NCBI RefSeq assembly: GCF_001244545.1
Contig: NZ_LN852695.1
Span: 467,232-531,231, forward strand
Length of the DNA: 64,000 nt
Origin: Candidatus Stoquefichus sp. SB1
Lineage (GTDB): Bacteria > Bacillota_I > Bacilli_A > Erysipelotrichales > Coprobacillaceae
Direction: 5' to 3'
Part shown: positions 1-53,566 of the stretch, one piece after another
Numbering within the stretch: position 1 is the stretch's first letter
Layout of the letters: every line of letters begins with the position of its first letter
Program-made: the position numbers and the translations under genes
The notes under the pieces: generated by a model
What the model was told of the DNA's origin: nothing
The model's input: the letters and a program-made list of their open reading frames with translations, nothing else
Databases searched by the model: none

Positions 1-1149
1 CTCTCCGTTAGACAGAATGCAAAAAACAAATGTGGTTTGCAGATTGTCTGTAAAAAATCAAGACTCTGTAATAACTGTGAATCTGGTTTATGCAAATACT
101 GCAGCTATGCTAAATGTTCTACTCTCTGCTGTGATTTCCAGGAACTTCCTGAATGCAAAACAATGAAACGTTTCCCATATGTATGCAATGGCTGTGATAA
201 AATCAAGGAATGCCCTTTACCAAAGGTATTCTATAAGGCTTCTACTGCTCAAACTGAATATGAATTTAATGTTTCAGAACACAAAAAAGGTCCTCAATTA
301 AATGCAGTTCAAATGAAGCAGCTTGATAAGATTATCAGTGATGGTGTGAAACGAGGAATAGCCATTGAAGTCATCATAGAAACAAATCATCTTCATATTG
401 CTCCCAGTACTGTCTATCATTACATTGATCTTAACTTATTGGAAGTCAAGAACATCGATCTGAAACGTAAAGTCAGATATCACCAAAGGTATACAATAAA
501 GCCAAAAGCGAAGCCATTAAACTATGATTATTTAAATAATAGACGATTTGATGACTTTACTCAATATCTACTTGAAAATCCTGGAGTAAATATTTGGCAA
601 ATGGATACTTTAATAGGTAAAAAGGGAGAAGGCGAAAATACAGTCTTATCTCTTCTCTATACAAAAACAAATCTTCAGTTGTTTTTCAAACTAAGATCAA
701 ACTGTGCAGATGAAGTGAATAGAGTTTTTGAAAGAATCAAAAAGCATCTGGGAAGTGATCTCTTCAAGGAAATATTTGAATGTCTGCTTACAGATAACGG
801 AAAGGAATTTTCAGATCCGTTATCAATTGAAGCAGATTCTCAGACTGGCGAAACACTTACACATGTTTTTTACTGCAATCCAGGAAGAAGTGACCAGAAA
901 GGAAAATGTGAAAAGAATCATGAACACTTTAGAGAATGCATTCCTCAGGGTATAAGTTTTAATCCATATATGCATTCAGATATCATAAAGATATCAAATC
1001 AGGTAAACAATTATCCCAGAAAAATGTTAGGCTTTCATTCACCATATGAAAGTACAATGTCATTACTCAATAAAAAAGTATTTGAGCTAAATCAGCTTCA
1101 TGAGATACCCGCTCATAAAGTTACACTCAAATACCCTAGAAAAGTTTAA
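1..1149 (+). CDS. IS30-type transposase, 5' end outside the window
   Basis: DDE transposase. The frame is open from base 1, so the N-terminus lies outside the window; the TTG at 37 is only an internal codon. A Cys-rich N-terminal stretch (repeated CxxC-like pairs) is followed by an HTH-like segment and the integrase core. Candidate catalytic acids are in WQMDTLIG, LLTDNGKEF and KCEKNHEHFR, the spacing and context typical of the IS30 family. No inactivating stop is seen within the window. It lies just upstream of a recombinase gene, so this edge of the polysaccharide locus is mobile-element territory. The family call is good; whether the element is intact cannot be judged here. Confidence 0.85.
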   Translation, partial: LSVRQNAKNKCGLQIVCKKSRLCNNCESGLCKYCSYAKCSTLCCDFQELPECKTMKRFPYVCNGCDKIKECPLPKVFYKASTAQTEYEFNVSEHKKGPQLNAVQMKQLDKIISDGVKRGIAIEVIIETNHLHIAPSTVYHYIDLNLLEVKNIDLKRKVRYHQRYTIKPKAKPLNYDYLNNRRFDDFTQYLLENPGVNIWQMDTLIGKKGEGENTVLSLLYTKTNLQLFFKLRSNCADEVNRVFERIKKHLGSDLFKEIFECLLTDNGKEFSDPLSIEADSQTGETLTHVFYCNPGRSDQKGKCEKNHEHFRECIPQGISFNPYMHSDIIKISNQVNNYPRKMLGFHSPYESTMSLLNKKVFELNQLHEIPAHKVTLKYPRKV

Positions 1150-1458: not shown

Positions 1459-1479
1459 ATGAGAAGGAGAAATGAAAAC

Positions 1480-2409
1480 ATGAGTATGAAATATGTATCA
1501 GAAGTCGCAGATGAGTGGTTAGAACTAAAGAGGTTATCAGTTAAATATTCAACATTAGTTAAATATGAGGTAGTTGTTAATAATCATATTAATCCCTATT
1601 TTCAAAATTGTCCTATTGATCAAATGGATGATGAAATGATTTTAAGTTTTTTTAATATGTTATTTAATCAAAATAAATATGCAAATAGCACATTATTAAC
1701 AATTAAATATGTATTAAAATCTATTAATCAATATATACAAATTAAATATGGAACTGAAGGTAATCGGATGGAACTCATAAAAATAGTTAAAAAACCAAAT
1801 CGTGTGACAACTTTAACTAACTATCAAAATAGTCATCTATCCAATTATTGTTTTCATCATTATGAACCCATATCAATAGCTGTTTTAATTGCATTGTATG
1901 GTGGTTTAAGAATAGGGGAAATATGTGCACTAAAGTGGGGAGATATTAATGATGATGAAAGTTATATATCAATTAATAATACTATTGAACGCTTAAAATC
2001 TAAAGAATCTACACAAAAGAAAACATCCTTAATGATTCTTAATCCAAAAACAACAAGTTCTAAAAGAATTGTTCCAATACCACTATTTCTATTAGAATAT
2101 ATTCAAAACTATCGAAAACAGATTATTATTCATAGTCAAGATGACTATATTTTAACAAATAGTCAACGTATCCCTGAACCACGGACAACACAATATCGTT
2201 TTGCCAAATTATGTAGACAATTTGGTTTTTCAATTAAATTTCATTCACTCAGACATAGTTATGCGACTAACTGCGTTATGCAGGAAATAGATACAAAGTC
2301 TTTAAGTGAAATATTAGGACATTCAAATGTTGGGACAACTCTGAATCTCTATGTTCATTCCTCATTAGATTTTAAAAGAAAGCAAGTCGCTAAGATTTCA
2401 AAATACTAA
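1480..2409 (+). CDS. Tyrosine recombinase (phage-integrase family)
   Basis: Site-specific recombinase of about 309 residues. The N-terminal SAM-like core-binding domain is followed by the catalytic domain. The active-site set is visible: Arg in YGGLRIGEICALKW, Lys near SSKRIVPIP, HxxR in FHSLRHSYAT, His in LGHSNVGTT and the nucleophile Tyr in LNLYVHS. An upstream ATG at 1459 is in frame, but AAGGAG at 1464-1469 lies downstream of it and is well spaced for the ATG at 1480, so I use 1480. It sits directly upstream of two LoaP-like genes, a place where a recombinase could invert a promoter or drive cluster exchange. No phage genes are nearby. Function in this locus is inferred. Confidence 0.88.
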   Translation: MSMKYVSEVADEWLELKRLSVKYSTLVKYEVVVNNHINPYFQNCPIDQMDDEMILSFFNMLFNQNKYANSTLLTIKYVLKSINQYIQIKYGTEGNRMELIKIVKKPNRVTTLTNYQNSHLSNYCFHHYEPISIAVLIALYGGLRIGEICALKWGDINDDESYISINNTIERLKSKESTQKKTSLMILNPKTTSSKRIVPIPLFLLEYIQNYRKQIIIHSQDDYILTNSQRIPEPRTTQYRFAKLCRQFGFSIKFHSLRHSYATNCVMQEIDTKSLSEILGHSNVGTTLNLYVHSSLDFKRKQVAKISKY

Positions 2410-2415
2410 TTTTTA

Positions 2416-2436
2416 CGCAGAATATAAAGTTCTGCG
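2416..2436. repeat. Perfect 7-bp inverted repeat between recombinase and loaP-like gene
   Basis: CGCAGAA and TTCTGCG around a 7-base loop. It is followed by AAATAATAAAA rather than a T-run, so termination is unlikely. It may be an mRNA stabiliser, an operator or a recombination site. It lies 33 bases before the likely GTG start of the next gene. Confidence 0.45.
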
Positions 2437-2469
2437 AAATAATAAAACTTTGAAAGGATGAGGTTTAAT

Positions 2470-2973
2470 GTGTTTTGGTATGTAGTTCATGTCAAACTCA
2501 ATCGTGCTTCAAAATTAGTTCATTTTTTTAATAAACAAGAAGCAACTGTAGCCTTTATTCCGAAAAAAGAACAATGGTTTAACATAAAAGGTGTTAAAGA
2601 TTATGTTGTTAGGGATTTGTATCCAGATTATGTGTTTATTAAAAGTCAATTAAATAAGGAAGAGTTTGAAAAACAATTTAATAATTTCTTTAAAACTGTT
2701 GAAGGTTTTGTGGATTTATTGGAATATGATGAAGTTTATTCTTTGAAAAAAGAGGAACAAGCATTTTTTGAGAAATTATTTGGTGAAGGAGATATTATCA
2801 GACATTCTGTTGGTTCTAATGTTAATCATCGATTTAAAGCAAATAGTGGACCATTAAAAGGATTAGAGGATGCTATTGTTAAGGTGAATCGTCATGGGAG
2901 ATTTGCAACTTTGAAGAGTAGTTTGTTTAATGGTAAATTTACTGTTGCAATTGAGGTTGAAAGAAGCCTATGA
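2470..2973 (+). CDS. loaP: NusG-paralog antiterminator (LoaP-like), first copy
   Basis: Specialised NusG paralog expected to bind RNA polymerase and promote processive antitermination of the downstream polysaccharide operon. The N-terminal NGN domain begins FWYVVHVK. The C-terminal KOW region has the LoaP-type SGPLKGLEDAIVKVNRHGRF motif. About 167 aa, the usual LoaP length. An ATG at 2458 abuts the AAAGGA ribosome site and is too close; the GTG at 2470 restores normal spacing and gives the family's usual N-terminus MFWYV. The gene overlaps the next one by 4 bases, so the two are translationally coupled. The family assignment rests on motifs and context; UpxY/RfaH-like is the alternative. Confidence 0.8.
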   Translation: MFWYVVHVKLNRASKLVHFFNKQEATVAFIPKKEQWFNIKGVKDYVVRDLYPDYVFIKSQLNKEEFEKQFNNFFKTVEGFVDLLEYDEVYSLKKEEQAFFEKLFGEGDIIRHSVGSNVNHRFKANSGPLKGLEDAIVKVNRHGRFATLKSSLFNGKFTVAIEVERSL

Positions 2974-3467
2974 ATTGGTATGTTCTCTATACACTTAGCC
3001 AAAAATCAAATAAGATCATTACAAATCTTAATAGAAAAAAGGAATTGATTGCGTTTATACCTGAATATGAAATCTGTCATCGAAAGACAAAAGAAATAAC
3101 AATAAAACCAATGTTTAGCAATTATATTTTTGTAAAGACAGATTTAAATCAAAGTGAATTTAATGATTTATTGTTAAAGATGAAAGATGAAAATGATGGT
3201 TTAATTAAGCAATTAAAGAATTGTGAAACTTCTGCTTTAAGAGAAAGTGAGATAGAATTCTTTCAAATGATTTTAGATGAACAATATATTGTGAGACTTT
3301 CATATGGTTATCAGGAAAATGGAATAACACATGTGACAAAAGGACCATTAAAACCTTTTGAAAAGCATATTGTAAAAGTTGATAAACATAATCAGTGTGC
3401 ATATCTTGATTTATTATTCTTTGATAGAAGAATTATGTTAGGTATTGATATTAAATGCAAGAATTAA
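2970..3467 (+). CDS. loaP: NusG-paralog antiterminator (LoaP-like), second copy
   Basis: Second NusG paralog, 165 aa. The NGN domain starts MNWYVLYTLSQKSNK; the KOW-like C-terminus contains TKGPLKPFEKHIVKVDKHN. It is clearly divergent from the first copy (different central region, Gly-Leu swaps in the KOW loop), so this is not a recent duplication. The ATGA overlap with the upstream stop indicates one transcript. The next 166 bases contain hairpins and a terminator rather than a gene, the layout expected of a LoaP target leader. The two paralogs may act on different targets, or as one complex; the sequence alone cannot say. Confidence 0.8.
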   Translation: MNWYVLYTLSQKSNKIITNLNRKKELIAFIPEYEICHRKTKEITIKPMFSNYIFVKTDLNQSEFNDLLLKMKDENDGLIKQLKNCETSALRESEIEFFQMILDEQYIVRLSYGYQENGITHVTKGPLKPFEKHIVKVDKHNQCAYLDLLFFDRRIMLGIDIKCKN

Positions 3468-3468
3468 G

Positions 3469-3544
3469 TGAAGCGCTTGGTAATCCGCCTTCACAGTAAT
3501 TTGGAACATAGTATGACTTATTTGGGGTAGGGGAAACTATGTCC
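3469..3544 (+). promoter_or_regulatory. Leader RNA with two hairpins, candidate LoaP loading element
   Basis: Hairpin 1 pairs GTGAAG (3469-3474) with CTTCAC (3490-3495). Hairpin 2 pairs GG-A-ACATAGT (3503-3512) with ACTATGTCC (3536-3544) around a 23-base loop rich in G. A second CTTCACAG occurs at 3565-3572 at the edge of the terminator, so GTGAAG could pair alternatively with the terminator arm. LoaP of Bacillus is known to recognise an RNA hairpin in the leader of its target operon; that this element is the target here is inference. Confidence 0.55.
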
Positions 3545-3567
3545 AAAATTATATATAAGTTGTACTT

Positions 3568-3593
3568 CACAGGTGAATAACCTGTGTTTTTTT
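3568..3593 (+). terminator. Intrinsic terminator in the polysaccharide operon leader
   Basis: CACAGGT (3568-3574) pairs with ACCTGTG (3580-3586) and is followed by seven T. It lies after the LoaP-like genes and before the biosynthetic genes, so transcription must read through it to express the operon. This is the expected target of antitermination. Confidence 0.8.
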
Positions 3594-3632
3594 ATGTTCA
3601 AAAATGAAATGATGAAAAGGAGGGGAATCATT

Positions 3633-4232
3633 ATTAAGAAGTTATTAATTATAGGAAGTGGTGGTCATGGCAGATGCTGTCTTGATATCGCTAGAGATAT
3701 GAATATCTATGATCAGATTGCTTTTCTTGATGACAATCATGTTCATGAAACTATTAATGGCTGTGACGTCATTGGAACTGTAGATGAAATGTCTTCATAC
3801 TATCCTGAGTATTCTGATATCTTTATTGCAGTTGGCAATAATAAATTAAGAAAGAAACTATCAATGCAGGCTAAGGAGATAGGCTATTATTGTCCATCGC
3901 TTATCAGTCCTGATAGCTATATTTCAAGATATGCAAATATAAATGAGGGAACTGTTGTCTTTCCTCATTCAGTGATTGAGGCTAATGCTAATATTGGTGA
4001 GGGATGTATCATTTCATCAAATGTAACTATTAATCATGATGCAGTGATTGAGGACTACTGTCTGATTTATTGCAGTACTGTCATAAGACCCAATACACTT
4101 ATTGGTTCTCTGGCAATAATAGGAAACAACTGTACTATTATATCAGGTTCCAAGATAAAGGCATGCAGTGATATAAGGGATGGCTCAGTCATAGAGCCGT
4201 CAGATAAATACAGTTTTGAGGTGGGAGTATGA
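3633..4232 (+). CDS. Sugar O-acetyltransferase, NeuD/PglD/EpsM-like
   Basis: Left-handed beta-helix acyltransferase expected to acetylate a sugar precursor of the polysaccharide. An N-terminal Rossmann-like domain (KKLLIIGSGGHGRCCLDIA) is followed by hexapeptide repeats (ANINEGTVVFPHSVIEANAN and on). The ORF can be opened at GTG 3573, but that codon lies inside the terminator hairpin. The ATGs at 3609/3612 lack a ribosome site. AAAAGGAGGGG at 3615-3625 is correctly placed only for ATT at 3630/3633, which gives the family's normal N-terminus, so a rare ATT start is likely. It overlaps the next gene by 4 bases. Confidence 0.82.
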   Translation: MKKLLIIGSGGHGRCCLDIARDMNIYDQIAFLDDNHVHETINGCDVIGTVDEMSSYYPEYSDIFIAVGNNKLRKKLSMQAKEIGYYCPSLISPDSYISRYANINEGTVVFPHSVIEANANIGEGCIISSNVTINHDAVIEDYCLIYCSTVIRPNTLIGSLAIIGNNCTIISGSKIKACSDIRDGSVIEPSDKYSFEVGV

Positions 4233-4846
4233 TCTATAACAAATATATCAAAAGAATGATAGACTTCATTCTGTCATTAATGGGACTTATCATCTTAAGT
4301 CCTGTTTTTATCATTCTCTGTATCTGGATAAAGATGGATTCAAAAGGACCTGTTCTTTTTAAGCAGAAAAGATTTGGAAAGAATAAATCCTATTTCAATA
4401 TCTATAAGTTCAGAACGATGAGAACTGATACACCAAGTGATATGCCAACACATATGCTTTCTAATCCAGAACAGTATATAACGAAATGTGGAAAGTTCTT
4501 AAGAAAGACATCACTGGATGAGCTGCCACAGATCATCAATATATTAAAAGGAGAGATGTCTATCATAGGGCCAAGACCAGCTTTATGGAATCAGGAAGAC
4601 CTGATAGAGAAAAGAGAGCAGTATCATGCCAATGACATCAGACCAGGACTGACAGGCTGGGCACAGATCAATGGCAGAGATGAACTGGAGATAGAAGTTA
4701 AAGCAAGGTTAGATGGAGACTACGTTAAGCGTATGTCTTTTTTGTTTGACCTGAAATGCTTCCTTGGAACAATTACATCAGTATTGAAATCAGATGGAGT
4801 TGTAGAAGGGGGAACTGGAGAACTTCATAAGGAGGACAGTTTATGA
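4229..4846 (+). CDS. Undecaprenyl-phosphate sugar phosphotransferase (initiating transferase)
   Basis: Short PglC/EpsL-type monotopic phosphoglycosyl transferase of 205 aa that starts repeat-unit assembly by moving a sugar-1-phosphate onto undecaprenyl phosphate at the inner membrane face. A membrane helix at about 10-32 precedes the catalytic domain. Family motifs visible are GPVLFKQKRFG, IYKFRTM, TSLDELPQIINILKGEMS, IIGPRP and RPGLTGWAQINGR. It overlaps both neighbours by 4 bases, so it is in one operon with the acetyltransferase and epimerase. The substrate sugar cannot be read from the sequence; the NeuD/EpsM-like neighbour suggests a di-N-acetylated amino sugar. Confidence 0.92.
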   Translation: MIYNKYIKRMIDFILSLMGLIILSPVFIILCIWIKMDSKGPVLFKQKRFGKNKSYFNIYKFRTMRTDTPSDMPTHMLSNPEQYITKCGKFLRKTSLDELPQIINILKGEMSIIGPRPALWNQEDLIEKREQYHANDIRPGLTGWAQINGRDELEIEVKARLDGDYVKRMSFLFDLKCFLGTITSVLKSDGVVEGGTGELHKEDSL

Positions 4847-5715
4847 AGAGGATACTGATAACCGGAGCAAACAGCTACATAGGAACATCATTTGAGGAAT
4901 ATATGAAAGAATATGATGACTATCAGCTTGAAACGCTGGATATGAAGAATCCAGAATGGAGAAATCATGATTTTTCCATATATGATACAGTCTTTCATGT
5001 TGCAGGGATAGCGCATGCAGATGTTGGACATGTCAGTGAGGAAGTCAGGAAGCTTTATTATAAGGTAAATACTGAACTGACTACTGAAACAGCAATGCAT
5101 GCAAAGAAGTCAGGAGTCAGACAGTTCATCTATATGTCATCTCTCATTGTGTATGGAGAAAGTGCACCCTTAGGAAAGAAGAAGATGATTACAGCTGAGA
5201 CAACACCAGAACCAGCAAATTTCTATGGAGACAGCAAGCTTCAGGCAGATATAAAGCTGCAGGAAATGAATGATGACAATTTCAGGGTCTGCATCTTAAG
5301 ACCGCCAATGATCTATGGACCAGGATGCAAGGGCAATTATCAGATGCTATCAAAAGTTGCGAAGCGATTACCGATATTTCCGGACATCAGAAATGAAAGA
5401 AGCATGCTGTATATAGGGAATCTGTGTTCCTTCATTAAGGAATGCATTGATGAACAAAAACATGGAATATACTTTCCACAGAACAGTGAATACATATCGA
5501 CATCACAGCTGGTCCTTGAAATAGCAAAAGCAAACAACAGAACCATTCATCTGACAAAGGCATTGAATCCAATTGTCTATATAGCATCAAAGATACCAGG
5601 GAAGATAGGTGGAATGTGCAACAAAGCATTTGGAAACATGACTTATGAAAAGGAATGTCCAATTAGCAGATATTCAATGAAACAAGGCATTGAGGAAACG
5701 GAGGTTGGCAAATGA
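4843..5715 (+). CDS. NAD-dependent epimerase/dehydratase (extended SDR)
   Basis: Nucleotide-sugar modifying enzyme of 290 aa. The Rossmann motif is GANSYIG near residue 8-14. The catalytic YxxxK is FYGDSKL (Tyr128, Lys132), with the partner Ser in YMSSLIVYG. It lies between the initiating transferase and the glycosyltransferases with 4-base overlaps on both sides. It most likely makes or edits a UDP-sugar for the repeat unit; epimerase, dehydratase and reductase cannot be separated by eye. Base composition is less AT-rich than the genes after about 6.3 kb, so it belongs with the 5' core of the locus. Confidence 0.87.
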   Translation: MKRILITGANSYIGTSFEEYMKEYDDYQLETLDMKNPEWRNHDFSIYDTVFHVAGIAHADVGHVSEEVRKLYYKVNTELTTETAMHAKKSGVRQFIYMSSLIVYGESAPLGKKKMITAETTPEPANFYGDSKLQADIKLQEMNDDNFRVCILRPPMIYGPGCKGNYQMLSKVAKRLPIFPDIRNERSMLYIGNLCSFIKECIDEQKHGIYFPQNSEYISTSQLVLEIAKANNRTIHLTKALNPIVYIASKIPGKIGGMCNKAFGNMTYEKECPISRYSMKQGIEETEVGK

Positions 5716-6863
5716 AAGATAAAGTATTAATCCTGGCTTCAGTGGCTTCAATGATAGATCAGTTTAATATGTCAAACATAGATATTTTAATTTCTTTAGG
5801 GTATGAGGTTCATGTTGCCTGTAACTTTGAAAAAGGCAGTACATGTTCGCAGGAGAAAATAGTACAGCTAAAGAAAAAACTTGGAGAAATAGAAGTTAAG
5901 TATTATCAGATTGACTTTACCAGATCGGTATTCAATATTTTACAGGATGTTAAAGCATACAGACAGGTAAAAAGAATAATGGTAGAAAATAGCTATAAGT
6001 TTATTCACTGTCATTCACCAATTGGAGGAGTCATTGGGAGACTAGCTTGTAAGAGTACACATACAAGGTGTATCTATACAGCACATGGCTTTCATTTTTA
6101 TAAAGGGGCACCAATAAAGAACTGGATAGTCTTTTATCCAATTGAAAAGTGGCTATCAAAATATACAGATGTTTTAATAACGATTAGCAAGGAGGATTAC
6201 AATCGAGCAAAAAACAAATTCAAGATGAAACAATTAGAATATATACCTGGGGTTGGAGTCGATATTGAAAAGTTTCGATTAACAGATATTGATCGTGAGA
6301 AATATCGAAAACAGCTAGGATTTACAGAAAAAGACTTTTTAATTTTATCAGTAGGAGAACTTAATAAAAATAAAAATCATCAGGTAATTATAAAAGCAAT
6401 TAAATCTTTAAAGAATAGTAATATTAAATATATTATAGCGGGTCAAGGAAATCTAAAGAGTGACTTAATGCATTATATTGAAGTGCATAATTTGAGCAAT
6501 CAAGTTAAACTATTGGGTTTTAGAGAAGATATTCCAGAGTTATGTAAAATAAGTGACGTTTTTGCATTCCCGTCATTAAGGGAGGGACTTGGACTAGCAG
6601 CAATAGAAGCAATGGCTGCTGGATTGCCTTTAATTACTTCTAATATTAATGGGATAAATGATTATTCAAAATTTGGAAAGACAGGTTACTCATATAATGC
6701 AACTGATGTTGAGGGATTTAGTGATGGGATTAAACTATTATTTTTAGATGTGAAGAAGAGAATTATAATGTCTGAATATTGTAAACAAGTTGCTAAAAAA
6801 TATGATATAAAATTGGTAAATATTATAATGGAAAAAATATATTTAGGATTGAAGTACGAATGA
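5712..6863 (+). CDS. Glycosyltransferase family 4 (EpsD-like)
   Basis: GT-B fold transferase of 383 aa adding a sugar to the lipid-linked repeat unit. The N-terminal domain contains FIHCHSPIGGVIGRLA and YTAHGFHFYKGAP, typical of the EpsD branch. The C-terminal GT4 signature is SLREGLGLAAIEAMAAGLP with the E-x7-E pair. It overlaps the epimerase by 4 bases. Composition changes within this gene: the first third resembles the upstream core, while the rest is much more AT-rich, like the downstream genes. A recombination junction inside or near it is possible. Confidence 0.88.
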   Translation: MKDKVLILASVASMIDQFNMSNIDILISLGYEVHVACNFEKGSTCSQEKIVQLKKKLGEIEVKYYQIDFTRSVFNILQDVKAYRQVKRIMVENSYKFIHCHSPIGGVIGRLACKSTHTRCIYTAHGFHFYKGAPIKNWIVFYPIEKWLSKYTDVLITISKEDYNRAKNKFKMKQLEYIPGVGVDIEKFRLTDIDREKYRKQLGFTEKDFLILSVGELNKNKNHQVIIKAIKSLKNSNIKYIIAGQGNLKSDLMHYIEVHNLSNQVKLLGFREDIPELCKISDVFAFPSLREGLGLAAIEAMAAGLPLITSNINGINDYSKFGKTGYSYNATDVEGFSDGIKLLFLDVKKRIIMSEYCKQVAKKYDIKLVNIIMEKIYLGLKYE

Positions 6864-6876
6864 AAGGAGAAAAGTC

Positions 6877-7998
6877 ATGAAAATACTATATTTTATTTAT
6901 GGTTTAAATATTGGTGGGGCAGAAACGTATATATATAATACAATAAGTCGGCTAAATAATAGTAAATATCATATTGATTTTGTATTACAAAACAAAAAAA
7001 ATGATAATCATAACTTAATTAATCTTTGCAAAAAAAACAACTCTAAATTGTATTATGTCAGTCCTTTCACAAAATGGTTTTTTCCTCAATTATTTCAATT
7101 AAACAAGATATTAAAAAATAATGAATATCAAATAATACATATTCATATGAATTCAATGTTAAATATTATACCCATAATAATGGGAAGACTGAATGGTTTG
7201 AAAATAATCATACATAGCCATAGTACACAAAACAACAGTGGACGAATTGTAGGAAAAGCTATTCATTTGTTCAATAGAAAAATGATATTGAATTTTATTA
7301 AAACTGTTAATATAGCTTGTAGCGAAAAAGCTGGAATATGGATGTTTGATAAAAGACCGTTTATTTTAATAGATAATGCTGTTCAAATAGATCAGTTTAT
7401 TTATAGTAAAGATGCTAAAATTAAATTGAAAGAAAAGAATATGATCTATGAGGAGAAAGTAATAGGTCATATAGGAAGATATGTTGATGTTAAAAATCAT
7501 TTTTTTATTATTAAAGTATTCAACGAGTACATAAAGATACATCCAAATACAAAACTGGTATTGATTGGAGAAGGAGAATTAAAAGAGCAAGTTAATGAGT
7601 ATATTTCATATTTAGGAATTGAGAAAAATATAATTGAGCTAAATAATCAATCAAATATAAATGAATATTATTCTTTATTTGATTGTTTTTTATTTCCATC
7701 AAAATTTGAAGGATTTCCTTTTGTGTTAGTTGAGGCACAAATCGCTGGACTACCGATAATAGCATCGACGAATGTAACAAAAAGTGTTGATTTATTTGGG
7801 AAAATTGAATTTGTATCTTTAGAAAATGATATATCAGATTGGGTTAGTAAAATTGATAAATGTTTAAATCAAAATATAAATCGTAATGAAAACAATAAAG
7901 AATTAATGGAAAGTAAATATAACATTGATAATTCTGTAAAAAAAATAGAGAAAATATATATGGGAGAAGATTATGAAGATTTATACTATCACATGTAG
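6877..7998 (+). CDS. Glycosyltransferase family 4 (EpsF-like)
   Basis: Second GT-B retaining transferase, 373 aa. The N-terminal glycine-rich loop is GLNIGGAETYIYN; the C-terminal motif is KFEGFPFVLVEAQIAGLPIIAS, containing the E-x7-E pair. AAAGGAG lies 7 bases before the ATG. It overlaps the pyruvyl-transferase-like gene by 26 bases, so the two are translated from one message. Acceptor and donor sugars are not predictable here. Confidence 0.87.
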   Translation: MKILYFIYGLNIGGAETYIYNTISRLNNSKYHIDFVLQNKKNDNHNLINLCKKNNSKLYYVSPFTKWFFPQLFQLNKILKNNEYQIIHIHMNSMLNIIPIIMGRLNGLKIIIHSHSTQNNSGRIVGKAIHLFNRKMILNFIKTVNIACSEKAGIWMFDKRPFILIDNAVQIDQFIYSKDAKIKLKEKNMIYEEKVIGHIGRYVDVKNHFFIIKVFNEYIKIHPNTKLVLIGEGELKEQVNEYISYLGIEKNIIELNNQSNINEYYSLFDCFLFPSKFEGFPFVLVEAQIAGLPIIASTNVTKSVDLFGKIEFVSLENDISDWVSKIDKCLNQNINRNENNKELMESKYNIDNSVKKIEKIYMGEDYEDLYYHM

Positions 7999-9052
7999 CA
8001 ATGCATATAATTATGGGGCTGTATTACAAGCATATGCATTACAGCAATATTTAATTGGAAATGGCAATGTTGTTGAAATAATTGATTATTATCCCCCTTA
8101 TTTGAGAAAAATTTCAGAAAAATATAGAAAAAATTATTTTTTAAGATTAATAAGAAGTATTTTATATTTTCCTGATTATTTAATGTCAAAAAGAGTCTTT
8201 GAAAAATTTAAACAAGAGTATTTAATAACTACATCTAAATGTTACTCTAAAAATGATATAGACAAGTTAGAAAAGGCAGATCTTTACATTGTCGGTAGCG
8301 ATCAAGTTTGGAATCCAAACATGGAAAATGGACGAGATGAAAACTATTTTTTGAATTTTAATGGTATAAATAAAATGTCATATGCAGCAAGCATAGCTTG
8401 CTATGATTTAATTGACCAATATAAAGCGAACTTTAAAGCTTATCTTAAAGATTATAGTTTAGTAACTGTACGTGAAAGGCAAAATGTTCAAACACTAAAA
8501 AATATAGGAATTGAATCAGAGTATGTTCTTGATCCTGTTTATTTGCTATCAAAAACTGAGTGGAAGAAACTATGTAAAATTGAATACACAGAGAAGTACG
8601 TTCTGGTTTACGCTTTGCATCATATTCAAGAAATATACAATTATGCAAAAGAACTAGCAAAATCTATAGATGCAAAAGTATATGTAATAAATGTTGAAAT
8701 AAAAGAAAAACTTCGTGGAAATGATAAGTTTTTCTGGAATCCTGATGTAAATACATTTCTTTCATTAATTGATAATTGTGAAGCTATTGTTTCAAACAGT
8801 TTTCATGGTATTTCTTTTGGGCTTATTTTTGAAAAACCGGTTCATATTTTTGATACAGAAAAAAATGATTTAAGAATAAAAAACATTGTTGAAATATTTA
8901 ATCTAGAAAACCGTTTAATTGATTTAGAATACCCAAATATACTAGATAATAGTATTCAAGTCGAGGGGCAAAAAATAATAGGAGAAGAAGCAAAACGTTC
9001 AAAGCAAATATTATTAAATGGAATTAATGAGGTATGTAAGAGAAATGAGTAA
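7973..9052 (+). CDS. Polysaccharide pyruvyl transferase family protein
   Basis: Member of the CsaB/WcaK superfamily, 359 aa. Visible motifs are NAYNYGAVLQAYALQQYL at the N-terminus, YIVGSDQVWNPN in the middle and ISNCEA-like/SNSFHGISFGLIFEKP near the C-terminus. Such proteins transfer pyruvate ketals from PEP or act as divergent glycosyltransferases in capsule clusters. An Fe-S/F420-beta-like protein three genes downstream is a frequent partner in gut commensal capsule loci. The GGAG upstream of its ATG is inside the preceding gene. The actual reaction is unproven. Confidence 0.83.
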   Translation: MKIYTITCSNAYNYGAVLQAYALQQYLIGNGNVVEIIDYYPPYLRKISEKYRKNYFLRLIRSILYFPDYLMSKRVFEKFKQEYLITTSKCYSKNDIDKLEKADLYIVGSDQVWNPNMENGRDENYFLNFNGINKMSYAASIACYDLIDQYKANFKAYLKDYSLVTVRERQNVQTLKNIGIESEYVLDPVYLLSKTEWKKLCKIEYTEKYVLVYALHHIQEIYNYAKELAKSIDAKVYVINVEIKEKLRGNDKFFWNPDVNTFLSLIDNCEAIVSNSFHGISFGLIFEKPVHIFDTEKNDLRIKNIVEIFNLENRLIDLEYPNILDNSIQVEGQKIIGEEAKRSKQILLNGINEVCKRNE

Positions 9053-9968
9053 AGTATTGATGCTATGGCCTGATATTACTGAAGATATCCCAAAAATGAT
9101 AGATAAAAACTATCATGAGATAGTCGATATAAAAAATTTATATAACACTAAATATAGTGGGAAGATAAGTAGAACAGTTAGAAAAATTCTATCTGTGATG
9201 AATCTATCAACGTATTTCTTTTTTGATGATTGGGTAAATCGTATGGAAGAATATGATATTATAATAATTCATGCAAATCAAATTAATAGAACTGTTCCTC
9301 GTACTTTGAGAAAAAAAGGGTTTGATCACCGAATTATTTATTGGTATTGGAATCCAGTATGTAACTCAATTTCTCCTAAAAAAATAAGTAGAAAATACTG
9401 TGAATTATGGAGTTTTGATGTTAATGATTGTAAAAAATATGATATGAAATATAATTCAACTTACTACTTTAATTGTTTAAATGCAATTGAAAATGACGTG
9501 ATTTATGATATGTTTTTTATTGGAAGAGATAAAGGAAGATATGAAACAATAAGGTGTTTAGAAAGTGAGATTCAGAGTATGGGGTATAGCACAAATTTTA
9601 TGATAATAAAAGACGCAACAAGTCCATCATTTGGAATGTTTTCCAAATTTTTACCATATAAAGATGTGATAGATTTTGTTAAAAAATCGAAATGTATTGT
9701 CGAATTCAATCAGGAAGGACAAATGGGTCTGTCATTGCGTGTTATGGAAGCTATATTCTATGATAAAAAAATTATAACAAATAATCACAGTATAAAAAAT
9801 GAAGTTTTTTATGATGAAAATAGAATATTTATTATTAATGATTATAATCATAAAGATATAAAAAAATTTATCAATTTAGATTATTGTAAAATAGATGACA
9901 GTATAAAAGAATATTATGACTTTAAAAATTGGATTTCGAGATTTGTGAAGGAGGTTGAAAAATATTAA
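9045..9968 (+). CDS. Probable glycosyltransferase of the polysaccharide locus
   Basis: About 307 aa. I do not recognise a firm family. The segment VIYDMFFIGRDKGRYETI followed by a conserved-looking acidic and hydrophobic pattern, and EFNQEGQMGLSLRVMEAIFYDKKII, resemble the C-terminal half of GT-B enzymes (CgeB/LPS-type). An in-frame ATG at 9018 exists, but MSKVLMLWPDI from 9045 is the more natural N-terminus; 9045 overlaps the upstream stop by 8 bases. Position between a pyruvyl-transferase-like gene and the polymerase supports a role in repeat-unit synthesis. Confidence 0.65.
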   Translation: MSKVLMLWPDITEDIPKMIDKNYHEIVDIKNLYNTKYSGKISRTVRKILSVMNLSTYFFFDDWVNRMEEYDIIIIHANQINRTVPRTLRKKGFDHRIIYWYWNPVCNSISPKKISRKYCELWSFDVNDCKKYDMKYNSTYYFNCLNAIENDVIYDMFFIGRDKGRYETIRCLESEIQSMGYSTNFMIIKDATSPSFGMFSKFLPYKDVIDFVKKSKCIVEFNQEGQMGLSLRVMEAIFYDKKIITNNHSIKNEVFYDENRIFIINDYNHKDIKKFINLDYCKIDDSIKEYYDFKNWISRFVKEVEKY

Positions 9969-11277
9969 TTTATTATTATTACTAATTTCATTATTTATTC
10001 TTTTTCTTATATTTCTTTATGCTACAAATTTTGACTTATTATCACCAGTATCACTGTCATGTGCTTCGTTTATGTTTGTAACTTTTATTGCATTTAGTTA
10101 TAATGGATTTTTCAAAATGGATATTTCTTTTACAACTATAGTATTTATTATTAGTAGTTTAATAGTTTTTTTTATTGGTTTTTTATGTTTTTCACATATA
10201 AAATTAAATGTAAAATTATTTAAAAAACGAAAAAATCAAGTATGTGGACTCAATATATCAATCAATGTATCAACATTTATTTTAATATTATTAATAATAT
10301 CTCTATATTTAAATTATAATAATACTTTACATATAGCTCACCTTGTTAATCCAAAAGCAAATATTTTTAATATGTTAGAATATGCAAGAAATGCAATGAT
10401 TTATATGGATATAAGAAATAGTTTTTTTGTTTCTTTATTAGGATTTATAAGTATTTCAATAGGATATTTATATTCATATGTAATTATAAATAATTACATA
10501 ATTCATTATAATGATGTAAAATTAAAAATTTTATTGCAAATAATTATTGTAATTATATCATTAGTAATTGCTAGTTTGAGTACAGGAAGAACATTTTTAA
10601 TTAAATACATAGTTGTTTGTATTGTAATGTTTATATATTTAAAAAAGATATATTTAAATATTAATAAATATAGTATAGGGGTGTTAATAAAAAATGTAAA
10701 AATGATTATCTGTGCATTACTTGTTTTTTTTGTTTCGTTCCAATTGCTAGGAATTACAACAGGTAAAACTGGAAAGAAGTCAACTGTTGAAATGATATAT
10801 GAATATTCGGGCGCTTCAATTATTGCCTTGGACATTTCTATTAATGAATATAATAATAACTATATAGATGATGGTCGATTCTTTGGTGAAGAATCATTCT
10901 ATGGGTTTTATGGATTTTTAAATGCAATGGGTATAAAAGTTCCAAATACTATATTACATTTGCCATTTGTAACCACTGGCGAGAATCAAAGAACTAATAT
11001 ATATACTGCACTAAGAACATATCTGTATGATTTTGGATATTTTGGTACATATTTAGTACAATTTATTTTAGGATTAATAATAGGTTTTCTATATTCGCTT
11101 TTAAGAAAGAATGCCAATAATCCTGTTTATTTATTATTATATGGGATTATATTATACGGAGTTGCTATGCAAGGTATAGAAGAAATACAATTAAGAAATT
11201 TTATGTCTATTACAAATATTTTTACAGTTTTATTTTTTGTCTTATTGTATAATTTATTAATAAAGAAAAAATCTTGA
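9964..11277 (+). CDS. wzy: Polysaccharide polymerase, Wzy-like integral membrane protein
   Basis: Highly hydrophobic protein of about 437 aa with 10-12 membrane segments and a large loop around residues 280-350. This is the usual build of an O-antigen or capsule polymerase that joins repeat units on the outer face of the membrane. Sequence identity in this family is low, so the call rests on topology and context. A perfect AAGGAGG at 9948-9954 leaves only zero bases to the TTG at 9955 but 9 bases to ATT at 9964. ATT initiation is therefore plausible, as for the acetyltransferase gene. The next ATG is more than 100 bases inside. Confidence 0.75.
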   Translation: MNLLLLLISLFILFLIFLYATNFDLLSPVSLSCASFMFVTFIAFSYNGFFKMDISFTTIVFIISSLIVFFIGFLCFSHIKLNVKLFKKRKNQVCGLNISINVSTFILILLIISLYLNYNNTLHIAHLVNPKANIFNMLEYARNAMIYMDIRNSFFVSLLGFISISIGYLYSYVIINNYIIHYNDVKLKILLQIIIVIISLVIASLSTGRTFLIKYIVVCIVMFIYLKKIYLNINKYSIGVLIKNVKMIICALLVFFVSFQLLGITTGKTGKKSTVEMIYEYSGASIIALDISINEYNNNYIDDGRFFGEESFYGFYGFLNAMGIKVPNTILHLPFVTTGENQRTNIYTALRTYLYDFGYFGTYLVQFILGLIIGFLYSLLRKNANNPVYLLLYGIILYGVAMQGIEEIQLRNFMSITNIFTVLFFVLLYNLLIKKKS

Positions 11278-11313
11278 TTTTTAGTCTATTATTTTATGAA
11301 AGAGGTGAATTAG

Positions 11314-12450
11314 TTGATAAATCCAAGTCAACATAATTGTACAGGTTGTACAGCTTGTATAATGTCTTGTCCAATTAAATGTATACACATGAAACAAGAT
11401 GAGGAAGGATTTTTAGTACCAAAAGTTGATGCTGAAAAATGTGTGAAATGCAATTTATGTGATCAAATATGTCCTGAACTAAACAGAAAAAACGTTATTA
11501 ACATAGGAAAAGTATATGCGTTTAAGAATAATGATTTACATATTAGATTAAATAGTTCATCAGGGGGCGCATTTTTTACAGTCGCTAAATATGTTATTGA
11601 AAAAAATGGGATTGTATGTGGTGCATTATTTGACAATAACTTAAAATTAATACATAAATGTGTGAGTTGCCTAGAAGATGTTAAAAAAATGATGGGGTCC
11701 AAGTATATTCAAAGTTATATTGGTAATGTTTATGAAGAAATAAGAAAAAATTTAGTGGCTAAAAAAATTGTGTTATTTACAGGAACACCATGCCAAGTAG
11801 CAGGACTTAAATCATATTTAAGAAAAGAATATGATAATTTATTGACGATTCAATTGATATGTCATGGAGTACCATCCCCATTATTGTTTGAGAAATATAA
11901 AATTTATTTAAAAAACAAGTATTCTATAAAAGAAATAGAATATTTATCTTTTAGAAAGAATAATAAATTTGTAATTACAGTACAAGGAGATGGTCGAAAA
12001 TTATCGTGGAAAGGTAGTATTGATTTGTATTTGCGACCTTTCATTAAAGGTAAAAACTATAGATATTGTTGTTATTCTTGTCAATATTCAAAAAATCATA
12101 TTGCTGATATAACAATTGGGGATTTTTGGGGAGTAGAAAAATATTATAAACAATTTTGTGATTCGCATGGCATATCTTTCTTAATGCTTAATACAAGCAA
12201 AGGGAAACAAATATTTAATCTTATGGAAAATGTTTCTTTCATTCAATCTAAATATGATATTGCTGCAAAAAACAATAACAATCTTTTAAATCCAACAGTA
12301 CTTAATAAAGATAGATACATATTTTATAAAGATATCAATGATCCAAATTATATAAAGAATCTAAAAAAATTTGTTCCATTAAAAGCTATAGTAGCTTCAA
12401 AATTGCCTAATAGTTTACTGGGATTTTTAAGGATGGAGAAAAATGAATAG
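11314..12450 (+). CDS. Coenzyme F420 hydrogenase/dehydrogenase beta-subunit-like Fe-S protein
   Basis: Protein of 378 aa with two N-terminal 4Fe-4S clusters (CTGCTACIMSCP and CVKCNLCDQICP), then the FrhB N- and C-terminal domains (SSSGGAFFTVAKYVIE, FTGTPCQVAGLKSYLR, DITIGDFWG). Members in capsule clusters of gut Bacillota and Bacteroidota co-occur with pyruvyl-transferase-like proteins and are thought to reduce a sugar or flavin substrate; no F420 biosynthesis is implied. The start is TTG at 11314, with AGAGGTGA 6 bases upstream. It overlaps the flippase gene by 8 bases. Confidence 0.85.
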   Translation: MINPSQHNCTGCTACIMSCPIKCIHMKQDEEGFLVPKVDAEKCVKCNLCDQICPELNRKNVINIGKVYAFKNNDLHIRLNSSSGGAFFTVAKYVIEKNGIVCGALFDNNLKLIHKCVSCLEDVKKMMGSKYIQSYIGNVYEEIRKNLVAKKIVLFTGTPCQVAGLKSYLRKEYDNLLTIQLICHGVPSPLLFEKYKIYLKNKYSIKEIEYLSFRKNNKFVITVQGDGRKLSWKGSIDLYLRPFIKGKNYRYCCYSCQYSKNHIADITIGDFWGVEKYYKQFCDSHGISFLMLNTSKGKQIFNLMENVSFIQSKYDIAAKNNNNLLNPTVLNKDRYIFYKDINDPNYIKNLKKFVPLKAIVASKLPNSLLGFLRMEKNE

Positions 12451-13849
12451 GAAAGATTTGTTTAGTAACTTAATTATTGCTCTTTTAGCTCAAGGTATTT
12501 CCATGATTTTGAGTTTTTTTATTTCATTTATCTTACCTAAAATGTTATCTGTAGAGTTTTTTTCATATTGGCAATTATTTATTTTTTACACTTCCTATGT
12601 AGGTTTTTTTCATTTTGGAATAAATGATGGTGTATATCTAAGATATGGTGGTAAGGAACTATCAGATATGAATACAAATTATATTGGAGGACAGTTTAAG
12701 ATATTATTTGTTATACAGTGTATAATAATTTTAATCAGTATAATACCCTTGCTATTACTTGATATAGATGGAAATAGATTGTTTATAATTGTAATTACAC
12801 TTATTTATATGGTTATTTTTAATTTATCTAATTATCTTGGTTATATATTTCAAGCAGCTAATAAAACTAAATGGTATTCCTACTCTGTTATAACTGATAA
12901 AGTGTTTTTTTTGGTATCAATCATAGTGCTTTTTGTATTAAATGAGTCTCATTATAAAATTTATATAGTATTTTATTTAATAGGCAAAATATTATGCTTG
13001 TTGTTTTGTATGTTGAAATCAAAAGAGTTGATAAATAATAAAATATCAAATTATAGTGGCATAATACAAGAATTGAATGAGACAATGAGGGTAGGTATTA
13101 AAATTACAATTTCATCTATGGCTAGCATGCTAATTTTGGGTATTGGCAGATTTCTAATAGATAATCATTGGGGAATCGAAATATTTGGTAAGATATCCTT
13201 TGCATTATCTTTAACTTCTTTTGCTTTAGCTTTTATAGCACAAGTTAGTATGGTTTTTTTTCCAATACTTAAAAGAATTGACATTAGTACTCAAAAAATT
13301 GTATATGAAACAATGAGAATAATGTGTTTTGCATGCATGCCATTGATTTATATTGTCATTATTCCAGCTAAAGAAGTATTAAATATCTGGCTACCACAAT
13401 ATGCAGATAGTATGTTATATTTATCAATATTATTACCTATATGTGTTTTTGATGCAAAAATGAATATGATTTTTAATACATATTTTAAAGCATTGAGGAA
13501 GGAAAAAATTTTACTTTTTATAAATCTTTTCGTGTTTATTTTAAGTTGTATTTTAAGTTTGGCAGGTGTATATATATTTAATTCATATATGCTTATTCTT
13601 ATTTCAATGGTATTTTGTATTATGGTAAGGAGTTCAGTTTCAGAAATATATTTAGGCAAAGTATTAAATTCACTTGATATTACTATAATGATTTATGAGC
13701 AAATTTTAGCACTTGTGTTTGTAATTATATCTTTGAATTTTAACTCAACTGTTTCCTTTATTGTAGTAATAGCATTATATCTGATTGAGATTGTACTTTT
13801 CAGAAGTACAATTTTTATAACTATTAAAAGATGTTTAAAATTTAAGTAA
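12443..13849 (+). CDS. wzx: Polysaccharide flippase, Wzx-like (MVF/MATE fold)
   Basis: Integral membrane protein of 468 aa with 12-14 hydrophobic helices in the even spacing typical of oligosaccharide flippases. It would move the undecaprenyl-linked repeat unit across the membrane for the Wzy-like polymerase. The N-terminus is NLIIALLAQGISMILSFFIS, a common Wzx opening. It is the last clearly biosynthetic gene of the operon. No Wzz-like chain-length regulator or Wze kinase is visible in the window, so length control is encoded elsewhere or absent. Confidence 0.85.
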   Translation: MNRKDLFSNLIIALLAQGISMILSFFISFILPKMLSVEFFSYWQLFIFYTSYVGFFHFGINDGVYLRYGGKELSDMNTNYIGGQFKILFVIQCIIILISIIPLLLLDIDGNRLFIIVITLIYMVIFNLSNYLGYIFQAANKTKWYSYSVITDKVFFLVSIIVLFVLNESHYKIYIVFYLIGKILCLLFCMLKSKELINNKISNYSGIIQELNETMRVGIKITISSMASMLILGIGRFLIDNHWGIEIFGKISFALSLTSFALAFIAQVSMVFFPILKRIDISTQKIVYETMRIMCFACMPLIYIVIIPAKEVLNIWLPQYADSMLYLSILLPICVFDAKMNMIFNTYFKALRKEKILLFINLFVFILSCILSLAGVYIFNSYMLILISMVFCIMVRSSVSEIYLGKVLNSLDITIMIYEQILALVFVIISLNFNSTVSFIVVIALYLIEIVLFRSTIFITIKRCLKFK

Positions 13850-13884
13850 GGTAAAACATTTTTATAATTACAGGAGGTGAATAC

Positions 13885-14703
13885 ATGTATATCAATACAG
13901 CAACAAAAGAAACAATGGAGAAATCTATATGTGAAGTATTAAATATCAATCATAAAGAATTAGATGATTTACTTGAAGATTGCTATAACAAGACACAGGC
14001 TAATCATCGCATTATGATATTGGATGATCAATATGATTATTTTCAATCCTATGTTAAAGAACATCTTACAAAAGATATAGATCAGATATTGTTTGTTCAT
14101 TTATCAAGAAGAATCAATGGAGATAATGATGATAATGGATATAATTTTGTTGACTTATTAGTAAAAGAAAATAGTTTATCAACATATCTTAAAAGTTATG
14201 GAATCACTTTTAAGTATGATAAATATATAAGAATGTTTATTCATAATAAAGAAGTTAATTTAAATGGTAATGATGAATATGCTTATAAATATTTAAAACA
14301 AAGATTTGGATATACTTTTCAGGATTATAGTTTTACAGGTTTTGCATTTATTGATGGTTTAGAAGATAATGATTATTATGAAATGACTAAAGGTGGACCT
14401 GAATTACTAGGTTATTTTTATCCTTTTGATATGAATGATTGTCTTATTGATGATTTTATAGTTCATAGTACTTTTTATCAATATGTGTATTTAGTTCCTA
14501 TTCAAGATATTTATTTTGATAATTATGATGAATTATCAAATCAAGAGAAACAATATCATATATTGGTTAAAACATTACAACGTTTATATTTTTATAAATA
14601 TGATTCTCTATTTAATGAAAATGATAATGTTGTTATGGGGATAACTAATAACAAGACACTATCTCATCAATACCTTATTGATAAAATTAAAATTGAAGAA
14701 TGA
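13885..14703 (+). CDS. Unknown 272-aa acidic soluble protein
   Basis: I do not recognise a family. The protein is acidic, rich in Asp, Asn and Tyr, without a signal peptide or membrane segment. A distinctive middle part reads FAFIDGLEDNDYYEMTKGG. A strong AGGAGGTG ribosome site precedes the ATG. It is 35 bases after the flippase and closed by a good terminator, so it may be the last gene of the polysaccharide transcript, although its content does not look biosynthetic. An enzyme-like or structural role is open. Confidence 0.6.
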   Translation: MYINTATKETMEKSICEVLNINHKELDDLLEDCYNKTQANHRIMILDDQYDYFQSYVKEHLTKDIDQILFVHLSRRINGDNDDNGYNFVDLLVKENSLSTYLKSYGITFKYDKYIRMFIHNKEVNLNGNDEYAYKYLKQRFGYTFQDYSFTGFAFIDGLEDNDYYEMTKGGPELLGYFYPFDMNDCLIDDFIVHSTFYQYVYLVPIQDIYFDNYDELSNQEKQYHILVKTLQRLYFYKYDSLFNENDNVVMGITNNKTLSHQYLIDKIKIEE

Positions 14704-53331: not shown

Positions 53332-53566
53332 AAGTTAAAAATGAAATCGTTGATTGGGAAGAGTAATTTATTGAACGCTTCAAGCGAGGTAACATAGAGT
53401 GGAAGGTTACTAAGTGGAAATGAATGAACCGCGCCCATGAGAGTCCATTGGAACACAAGTATAATGGAACGTCACCTGCGTTAAAGGCAAGAGTGGTTAG
53501 ATTATTCTGACAACGAGAGTGGTACCGCGTATATATACGTCTCTGGATTTTCCAGAGACGTTTTTG
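53332..53566 (+). promoter_or_regulatory. T-box leader of the arginine operon, specifier CGC (Arg)
   Basis: The stem I 5' side contains GGGAAGAGTAA (53357 on), the family's conserved box. The stem I 3' side holds GAACCGCG, where CGC (53430-53432) is the most reasonable specifier, read as arginine; CCG (Pro) is the alternative register. The T-box sequence is GAGTGGTACCGCG (53517-53529). The terminator is CGTCTCTGGA/TCCAGAGACG (53538-53560) followed by a T-run. Uncharged tRNA-Arg would favour the antiterminator and raise transcription of argGHCJBF. Confidence 0.88.

Follow-up and report, generated by a model that had tools for sequence, protein, structure and literature searches.

How might two tandem NusG-type genes, followed by a terminator, control the polysaccharide operon that they head? 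This question is raised by a locus of Candidatus Stoquefichus sp. SB1 within a 64,000-nucleotide stretch (the window). The reading that we favor, with a probability of roughly 0.7, is that a capsule-like polysaccharide operon is governed here by a phase-variable antitermination cassette of the LoaP type. The genome has a size of 3.59 Mb and is congeneric with Candidatus Stoquefichus massiliensis. The following features constitute the locus.

37..1149, + strand: IS30-family transposase gene within the putative invertible segment (NF033563, 101.8 bits, above cut-off)
1459..2409, + strand: tyrosine recombinase (Phage_integrase PF00589, 88 bits)
2416..2436, strandless: right recombination site CGCAGAATATAAAGTTCTGCG (five exact copies in the genome, 0 for the reversed control)
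2470..2973, + strand: loaP-A (A), a LoaP-like NusG paralog of the A clade with a GTG start (NF033641, 102 bits; 8f5g-like predicted fold)
2970..3467, + strand: loaP-B (B), a LoaP-like NusG paralog of the B clade with an ATG start (NF033641, 97 bits; 8f5g-like predicted fold)
3468..3494, + strand: leader hairpin 1, a covarying stem with the conserved core GG-N4-CC-GC
3497..3551, + strand: leader hairpin 2, with a G-rich loop and GGGGTAGGGG at 3524-3533; the likely terminator itself in type I relatives
3510..3566, + strand: possible alternative helix of type II leaders, 3510-3521 with 3555-3566
3568..3593, + strand: intrinsic terminator, stem 3568-3586 and U-tract 3587-3593 (T7)
3633..14703, + strand: polysaccharide operon, identified by profile matches of its genes

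The initial annotation had placed the 4-base gene overlap, two hairpins, and a terminator ahead of the biosynthetic genes, and all of its coordinates proved correct; the hairpin with a G-rich 23-base loop, the strong terminator, and the position of this terminator-bearing leader ahead of a polysaccharide operon were likewise recovered. That annotation is extended here by the invertible promoter upstream, by the conservation of the leader across the family, and by the terminator role of hairpin 2 in type I relatives. The operon begins with a NeuD/PglD-type acetyltransferase gene and further encodes an initiating sugar transferase, an epimerase, glycosyltransferases, a pyruvyl transferase, and, by a weak match, a flippase-like protein. 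No dense set of terminators was found inside the operon, where the one further forward-strand candidate was not above shuffled sequences, and intra-operon terminators were therefore dropped as evidence of processive antitermination. A strong Shine-Dalgarno sequence, AAGGAGGGG, precedes the first operon gene and is followed by ATT, the expected start lacking ATG, GTG, and TTG (3618-3650). An apparent ATT start is also seen at L080, L081, and L117, where the same gene comes first, and alternative starts have likewise been reported for RfaH targets (PMC12691694). Another RNA element of the window is a T-box leader (RF00230, 130 bits) on the + strand at 53341-53547.

The A and B proteins are 28% identical over 164 amino acids, and their genes share 4 bases (2970-2973). 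Searches against the NusG, LoaP, and UpxY families agreed with the earlier description of tandem LoaP-like paralogs: the best NCBIfam model for both proteins was antiterm_LoaP (NF033641), although their scores of 102 and 97 bits fall under its curated cut-off of 125 bits. Neither protein reached the cut-offs of UpxY (NF033644; 40 and 51 bits vs 100), housekeeping NusG (TIGR00922; 26 and 28 bits vs 135.7), or RfaH (15-26 bits vs 144). The AlphaFold models of A and B (mean pLDDT 86) have the NGN and KOW domains, and their best PDB match is the LoaP-RNA crystal structure 8f5g, with TM scores of 0.76 for B and 0.81 for A. In a tree of 93 proteins, all 34 A genes formed one clade (support 0.986) and all 45 B genes another (support 0.96), the two clades being sisters apart from the single LoaPs and NusG. 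Both proteins thus fall outside housekeeping NusG, the window genome's own copy of which is the outgroup of the tree, and the grouping with housekeeping NusG against which the initial annotation had set its reading does not occur. The tree and the scores under the cut-offs together ruled out membership of A and B in either housekeeping NusG or UpxY.

The window's genome contains 14 NusG-type genes detected with the LoaP and NusG profiles, comprising one housekeeping NusG (C5:887898) and 13 specialized paralogs. The latter include five tandem A-B pairs, a B-only locus, and two further singles. The A-then-B order recurs in Thomasclavelia, Longibaculum, Beduini, Erysipelatoclostridium, and other relatives. 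A recent redundant duplication was rejected as the origin of the pair, because the two genes fall into separate clades that several genera share. When 316 genomes of the order Erysipelotrichales were searched by profile, 36 clear A genes were obtained, with B immediately behind in every case (36/36), and a divergent 37th A (L162) likewise has B behind it, giving 37/37 in total. B without A was found at L061, L070, L082, L165, L166, and other loci; a decayed A remnant lies beside B at L046 and L118, and B with a leader occurs without A, twice next to such a remnant. Every A has a B, but B exists alone, which suggests that A depends on B and not the reverse, and by gene order and phylogeny A-B is a standing two-gene unit.

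The predicted folding of the leader was compared with that of dinucleotide shuffles, none of which was as stable (z = -3.98, 0/200). The hairpin stems covary among the leaders of related genomes, the comparison that the initial annotation had recommended. The stem of hairpin 1 varies freely and its GG-N4-CC-GC core is kept; MAFFT misaligns the internal loop of this hairpin, so arm-permutation counts and an alignment fitted with a covariance model were used instead. With the arms read by eye at 24 loci, the two arms of each hairpin 1 paired at 96.5% of positions, compared to 54 ± 4% with arms permuted among loci (0/2000 permutations). In the covariance model alignment of 26 sequences, which was fitted to the structure and so leans toward it, 94.4% of cells were paired, two-sided changes were present in 12 of 21 pairs, and the covariation score was 0.396, as against 0.177 ± 0.013 for shuffled alignments and ≤0.10 for slid structures. 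Hairpin 2 follows the pattern GAACATAGT...GGGGTAGGGG...ACTATGTTC, and its arms (3497-3512 and 3536-3551) enclose exactly 23 nt. A search of window positions 2400-3700 against Rfam gave no match up to E = 1, by which a known RNA family was ruled out, and the leader sequence and its folds have no UNCG loop, the apices being GG-UAAU-CC and the G-rich loop. Judged from these comparisons, the leader RNA is conserved, covaries, and lies outside the known Rfam families.

Two types of leader can be distinguished. In the type I leaders, which make up most loci, the U-tract lies directly after hairpin 2, suggesting that hairpin 2 is itself the terminator. The type II leaders, those of the window and seven relatives, have a separate terminator (ACAGG...CCTGT-U7) and may form a long alternative helix, the helices being mutually exclusive; their sequence 3′ of the U-tract is able to pair with GAACATA. 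In almost every type II leader, GGAACATA on the 5′ side of the G-rich hairpin (3500-3510 in the window) is able to pair with TATGTTC after the U-tract (3593-3603), which is present in the RNA only after read-through. The initial annotation had suggested that a repeat, CTTCACAG at 3489 and 3565, lets hairpin 1 and the terminator arm exchange partners. This suggestion was not sustained: full 6-nt complementarity exists in the window alone, the other seven type II leaders having just 2-5 nt between the hairpin 1 arm and the terminator, and the match is therefore probably due to chance. The mutually exclusive helices, together with the start of hairpin 1 directly after the B stop codon, where ribosomes finishing B could affect its folding, would fit an attenuator that is read by a metabolite, the ribosome, or another RNA-binding protein, with the paralogs only aiding elongation. 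We regard such an attenuator as very improbable, given that it would have to account for a leader that lacks an Rfam match and is confined to genomes with these LoaPs, even where no B gene precedes the leader.

The distribution of the leader was assessed with two covariance models. The first model, which included no sequence from the window's genome and no type II leader, recovered the window leader at 48 bits. The refined model had matches in 26 of the 316 genomes of the order, all 26 of which have a gene for a LoaP that belongs to the B clade or is closely sister to it. Forty of the 48 leader copies adjoin this gene, and the other eight stand alone. In a sample of 392 Bacillota genomes, leader matches were obtained in the Erysipelotrichales only, plus two weak ones in another family. 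Weak matches of the first model at G003:C2 and G013:C22 were discarded, being in unrelated contexts and missing from the matches of the second model. Two hairpins that resemble each other and share a GGGAGAGGGG apex, also weak matches of the first model, occur in unrelated contexts in two genera (L158:4160-4232 and L159, approximately 3812-3887). Thomasclavelia cocleata has a second leader (L150:2852-2929) 17.5 kb downstream of its first on the same contig, immediately preceding a further sugar transferase gene. Two sister lineages, L168 and L170, have one LoaP ahead of a recognizable G-rich hairpin 2, and hairpin 1 is absent or altered. We infer from these loci that the G-rich terminator hairpin predates the divergence of A and B and that hairpin 1 is associated with B.

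The largest set of leaders apart from LoaP genes was found in genome G022, with six stand-alone copies detected by the refined model and a seventh by the first model (L151-L157). Each is positioned ahead of surface-polysaccharide-type genes, most of them behind a similar tyrosine recombinase, and their loops are near-uniform. G022 encodes one B-like gene (L161), which has no leader beside it, and zero A genes. This is the pattern expected of a trans-acting regulon, and the seven leaders constitute a candidate phase-variable regulon of this kind.

Leader divergence follows B. Leader distance was correlated with B distance when A was controlled for (partial r 0.66-0.67), and the reciprocal value for A given B was 0.07-0.09. 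A natural chimera, L075, combines an A that is 81% identical to that of L065 with a B that is 88% identical to that of L066; the leader of this chimera follows B (similarity 0.71 vs 0.09). The correlation between leader and protein, however, declines gradually along both genes, so it could reflect physical linkage, which weakens the co-variation as functional proof. B has a nearly invariant arginine, R38, aligned opposite an E-R dipeptide of 8f5g, and A lacks it. LoaP of Bacillus velezensis loses its function through either of the mutations E40A and R41A (PMC12691694), and we infer that the dipeptide corresponds to these two residues. The initial annotation had considered a two-part device. 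This idea is partly supported: the pair is a conserved unit, and A is never found without B. Leader type tracks B and not A, by which A looks accessory.

The same observations bear on two other views of A. According to the first, A and B are independent antiterminators, B acting on the leader that separates it from the operon and A on other targets or another element, as their separate clades and the correlation of the leader with B only might indicate. We consider this distinctly improbable, since A always has B beside it, no further conserved leader element was detected, and in the window's genome the covariance model finds LoaP-linked copies only. The main rival for the role of A is that of a cross-locus inhibitor similar to UpxZ, by which the A of an ON locus would block B-dependent antitermination elsewhere and B would be the sole antiterminator. 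Bacteroides upxY-upxZ offers a parallel, two regulatory genes heading each of several phase-variable capsule loci (PMC7315117); the window's genome has five pairs and one B-only locus, and A neither tracks the leader nor has been kept intact at every locus. Yet A, being a NusG paralog in its own right and having the complete LoaP fold, could act on polymerase directly, and several genomes (G003, G012, and G034) have a single pair and hence no second pair to inhibit. We hold this role to be rather unlikely.

Upstream of A, the palindromic pattern CGCAGAA-N7-TTCTGCG is present in exactly five copies in the window's genome, four upstream of A-B pairs and one upstream of the B-only locus, and the reversed control pattern in 0 copies. 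The partner sites are inverted and slightly degenerate, mostly at a distance of 0.17-1.1 kb across loci. For the window locus the inverted left partner lies outside the window at C5:465187, 2.0 kb to the left, so the locus has the inverted site-specific repeats around a promoter that characterize an inverton. Its segment is 4.46 kb long because of the IS30 insertion. Nearly every segment carries a TGnTATAAT-like promoter with a TTGAAA-like -35 element at one end only. At L054 and L077 this promoter is directed toward A, and it is directed away from A at about 15 other loci and at the window locus, where the single promoter of the segment points outward and the assembly is thus in the OFF state. 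In this orientation the recombinase reads toward A with no terminator between them, and some A-B expression from the recombinase promoter is possible. Direct evidence for flipping of such segments is provided by L098 and L101, from two metagenome assemblies, which share 96% identity but have exactly the 1.14 kb between the palindromes, together with the recombinase, in opposite orientations; these two orientations are those of the homologous loci, the species of the window being represented by one genome. Recombinase homologs occupy the corresponding position at many loci, and the tyrosine recombinase 1459..2409 is likely the invertase of the segment. Terminator-like repeats were seen by eye just outside several left sites. 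The region also contains an exact 1666-bp duplication of IS30 and the recombinase start (L067:5396-8377; C5:465396-468377), with an N at its junction (L067:7231); this duplication may be an assembly artefact.

Based on these results, the favored cassette would operate as follows. The recombinase would invert the promoter segment between the two palindromic sites, and in one orientation only the TGnTATAAT promoter would drive loaP-A, loaP-B, and the operon. Polymerases passing B would transcribe hairpin 1 and the G-rich hairpin 2 and stop by default at the intrinsic terminator. With a terminator after B, antitermination is needed, and it would be supplied by B, perhaps with A: by homology with LoaP, B would recognize the nascent leader, load on RNA polymerase, and suppress termination, so that the whole operon is read. 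In the least certain step, A would be an accessory partner that tunes B, whether by binding as a second factor or by modulating cross-talk among the five loci. Two gates in series would prevent background transcription from producing capsule. The inversion step is well supported by the comparison of loci, and the antitermination step is carried over from LoaP by homology. A more specific version, in which B reads hairpin 1, A or both engage the G-rich hairpin or polymerase, and the two-factor NusG device as a whole forms an antitermination complex specific to its locus and gated by inversion, is proposed tentatively, at somewhat under even odds. If true, it would represent a control layer of phase-variable capsules in Bacillota with an origin independent of Bacteroides UpxY/UpxZ, as well as a new class of LoaP RNA target.

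Among known systems, LoaP is the nearest relative. In B. velezensis the leader of the dfn and mln operons combines an intrinsic terminator with a hairpin in the RNA (PMC12691694), and the window locus shares with this system an NGN-KOW NusG paralog, a biosynthetic operon, and a hairpin leader that contains an intrinsic terminator. It differs in having two tandem paralogs instead of one, with sequences below the family cut-off; in having hairpin 1 (GG-N4-CC-GC) and a G-rich hairpin in place of the UNCG tetraloop hairpin; and in its target, a polysaccharide operon behind an invertible promoter. The window pair thus departs from LoaP in both the model cut-off and the UNCG hairpin. The circuit resembles capsule control in Bacteroides, where each genome has several capsule loci with invertible promoters, each locus headed by two regulatory genes, and a NusG-paralog antiterminator (PMC7315117, PMC11892184), but it is built from different parts. 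The phylum and the NusG subfamily are different, both head genes here are NusG paralogs, the recombinase gene is often inside the invertible segment, and the leader follows the regulators, whereas the Bacteroides leader precedes upxY (PMC7819879). In Eggerthella lenta, DNA inversion shifts capsule genes relative to loaP; according to the accessible part of that preprint (PMC13174815), the inversions are megabase-sized, occur at 16-bp repeats, and have no adjacent recombinase, and tandem loaP genes or a small promoter segment are not reported there. RfaH/ops similarly pairs a specialized NusG paralog with surface-polysaccharide operons, but the leader here consists of RNA hairpins and an intrinsic terminator, and the RfaH model scores far under its cut-off. 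No description of the tandem pair or of the leader turned up in the open-access literature searched; most subscription journals were outside this search, and priority is not proven.

In the accessible portion of the literature, one LoaP RNA target class is established, the UNCG hairpin, and the present leader is a candidate for a second, with about 40 natural variants that can be used for mapping recognition. For specificity, nature offers two experiments, the L075 chimera and the G022 genome with its seven leaders, and the tandem pair makes it possible to examine how a single polymerase site is shared by two NusG paralogs. Together, the invertible promoters and the pair would form a Bacillota counterpart of Bacteroides capsule switching, suggesting how gut Erysipelotrichales may vary their surface. 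A different leader class may accompany single loaP genes: those at L049, L053, L057, L062, L071, L076, and L078 have a conserved upstream motif similar to TCGTYGC-N3-5-GTCRCGTT, and in some of them a terminator overlaps or trails the stop codon.
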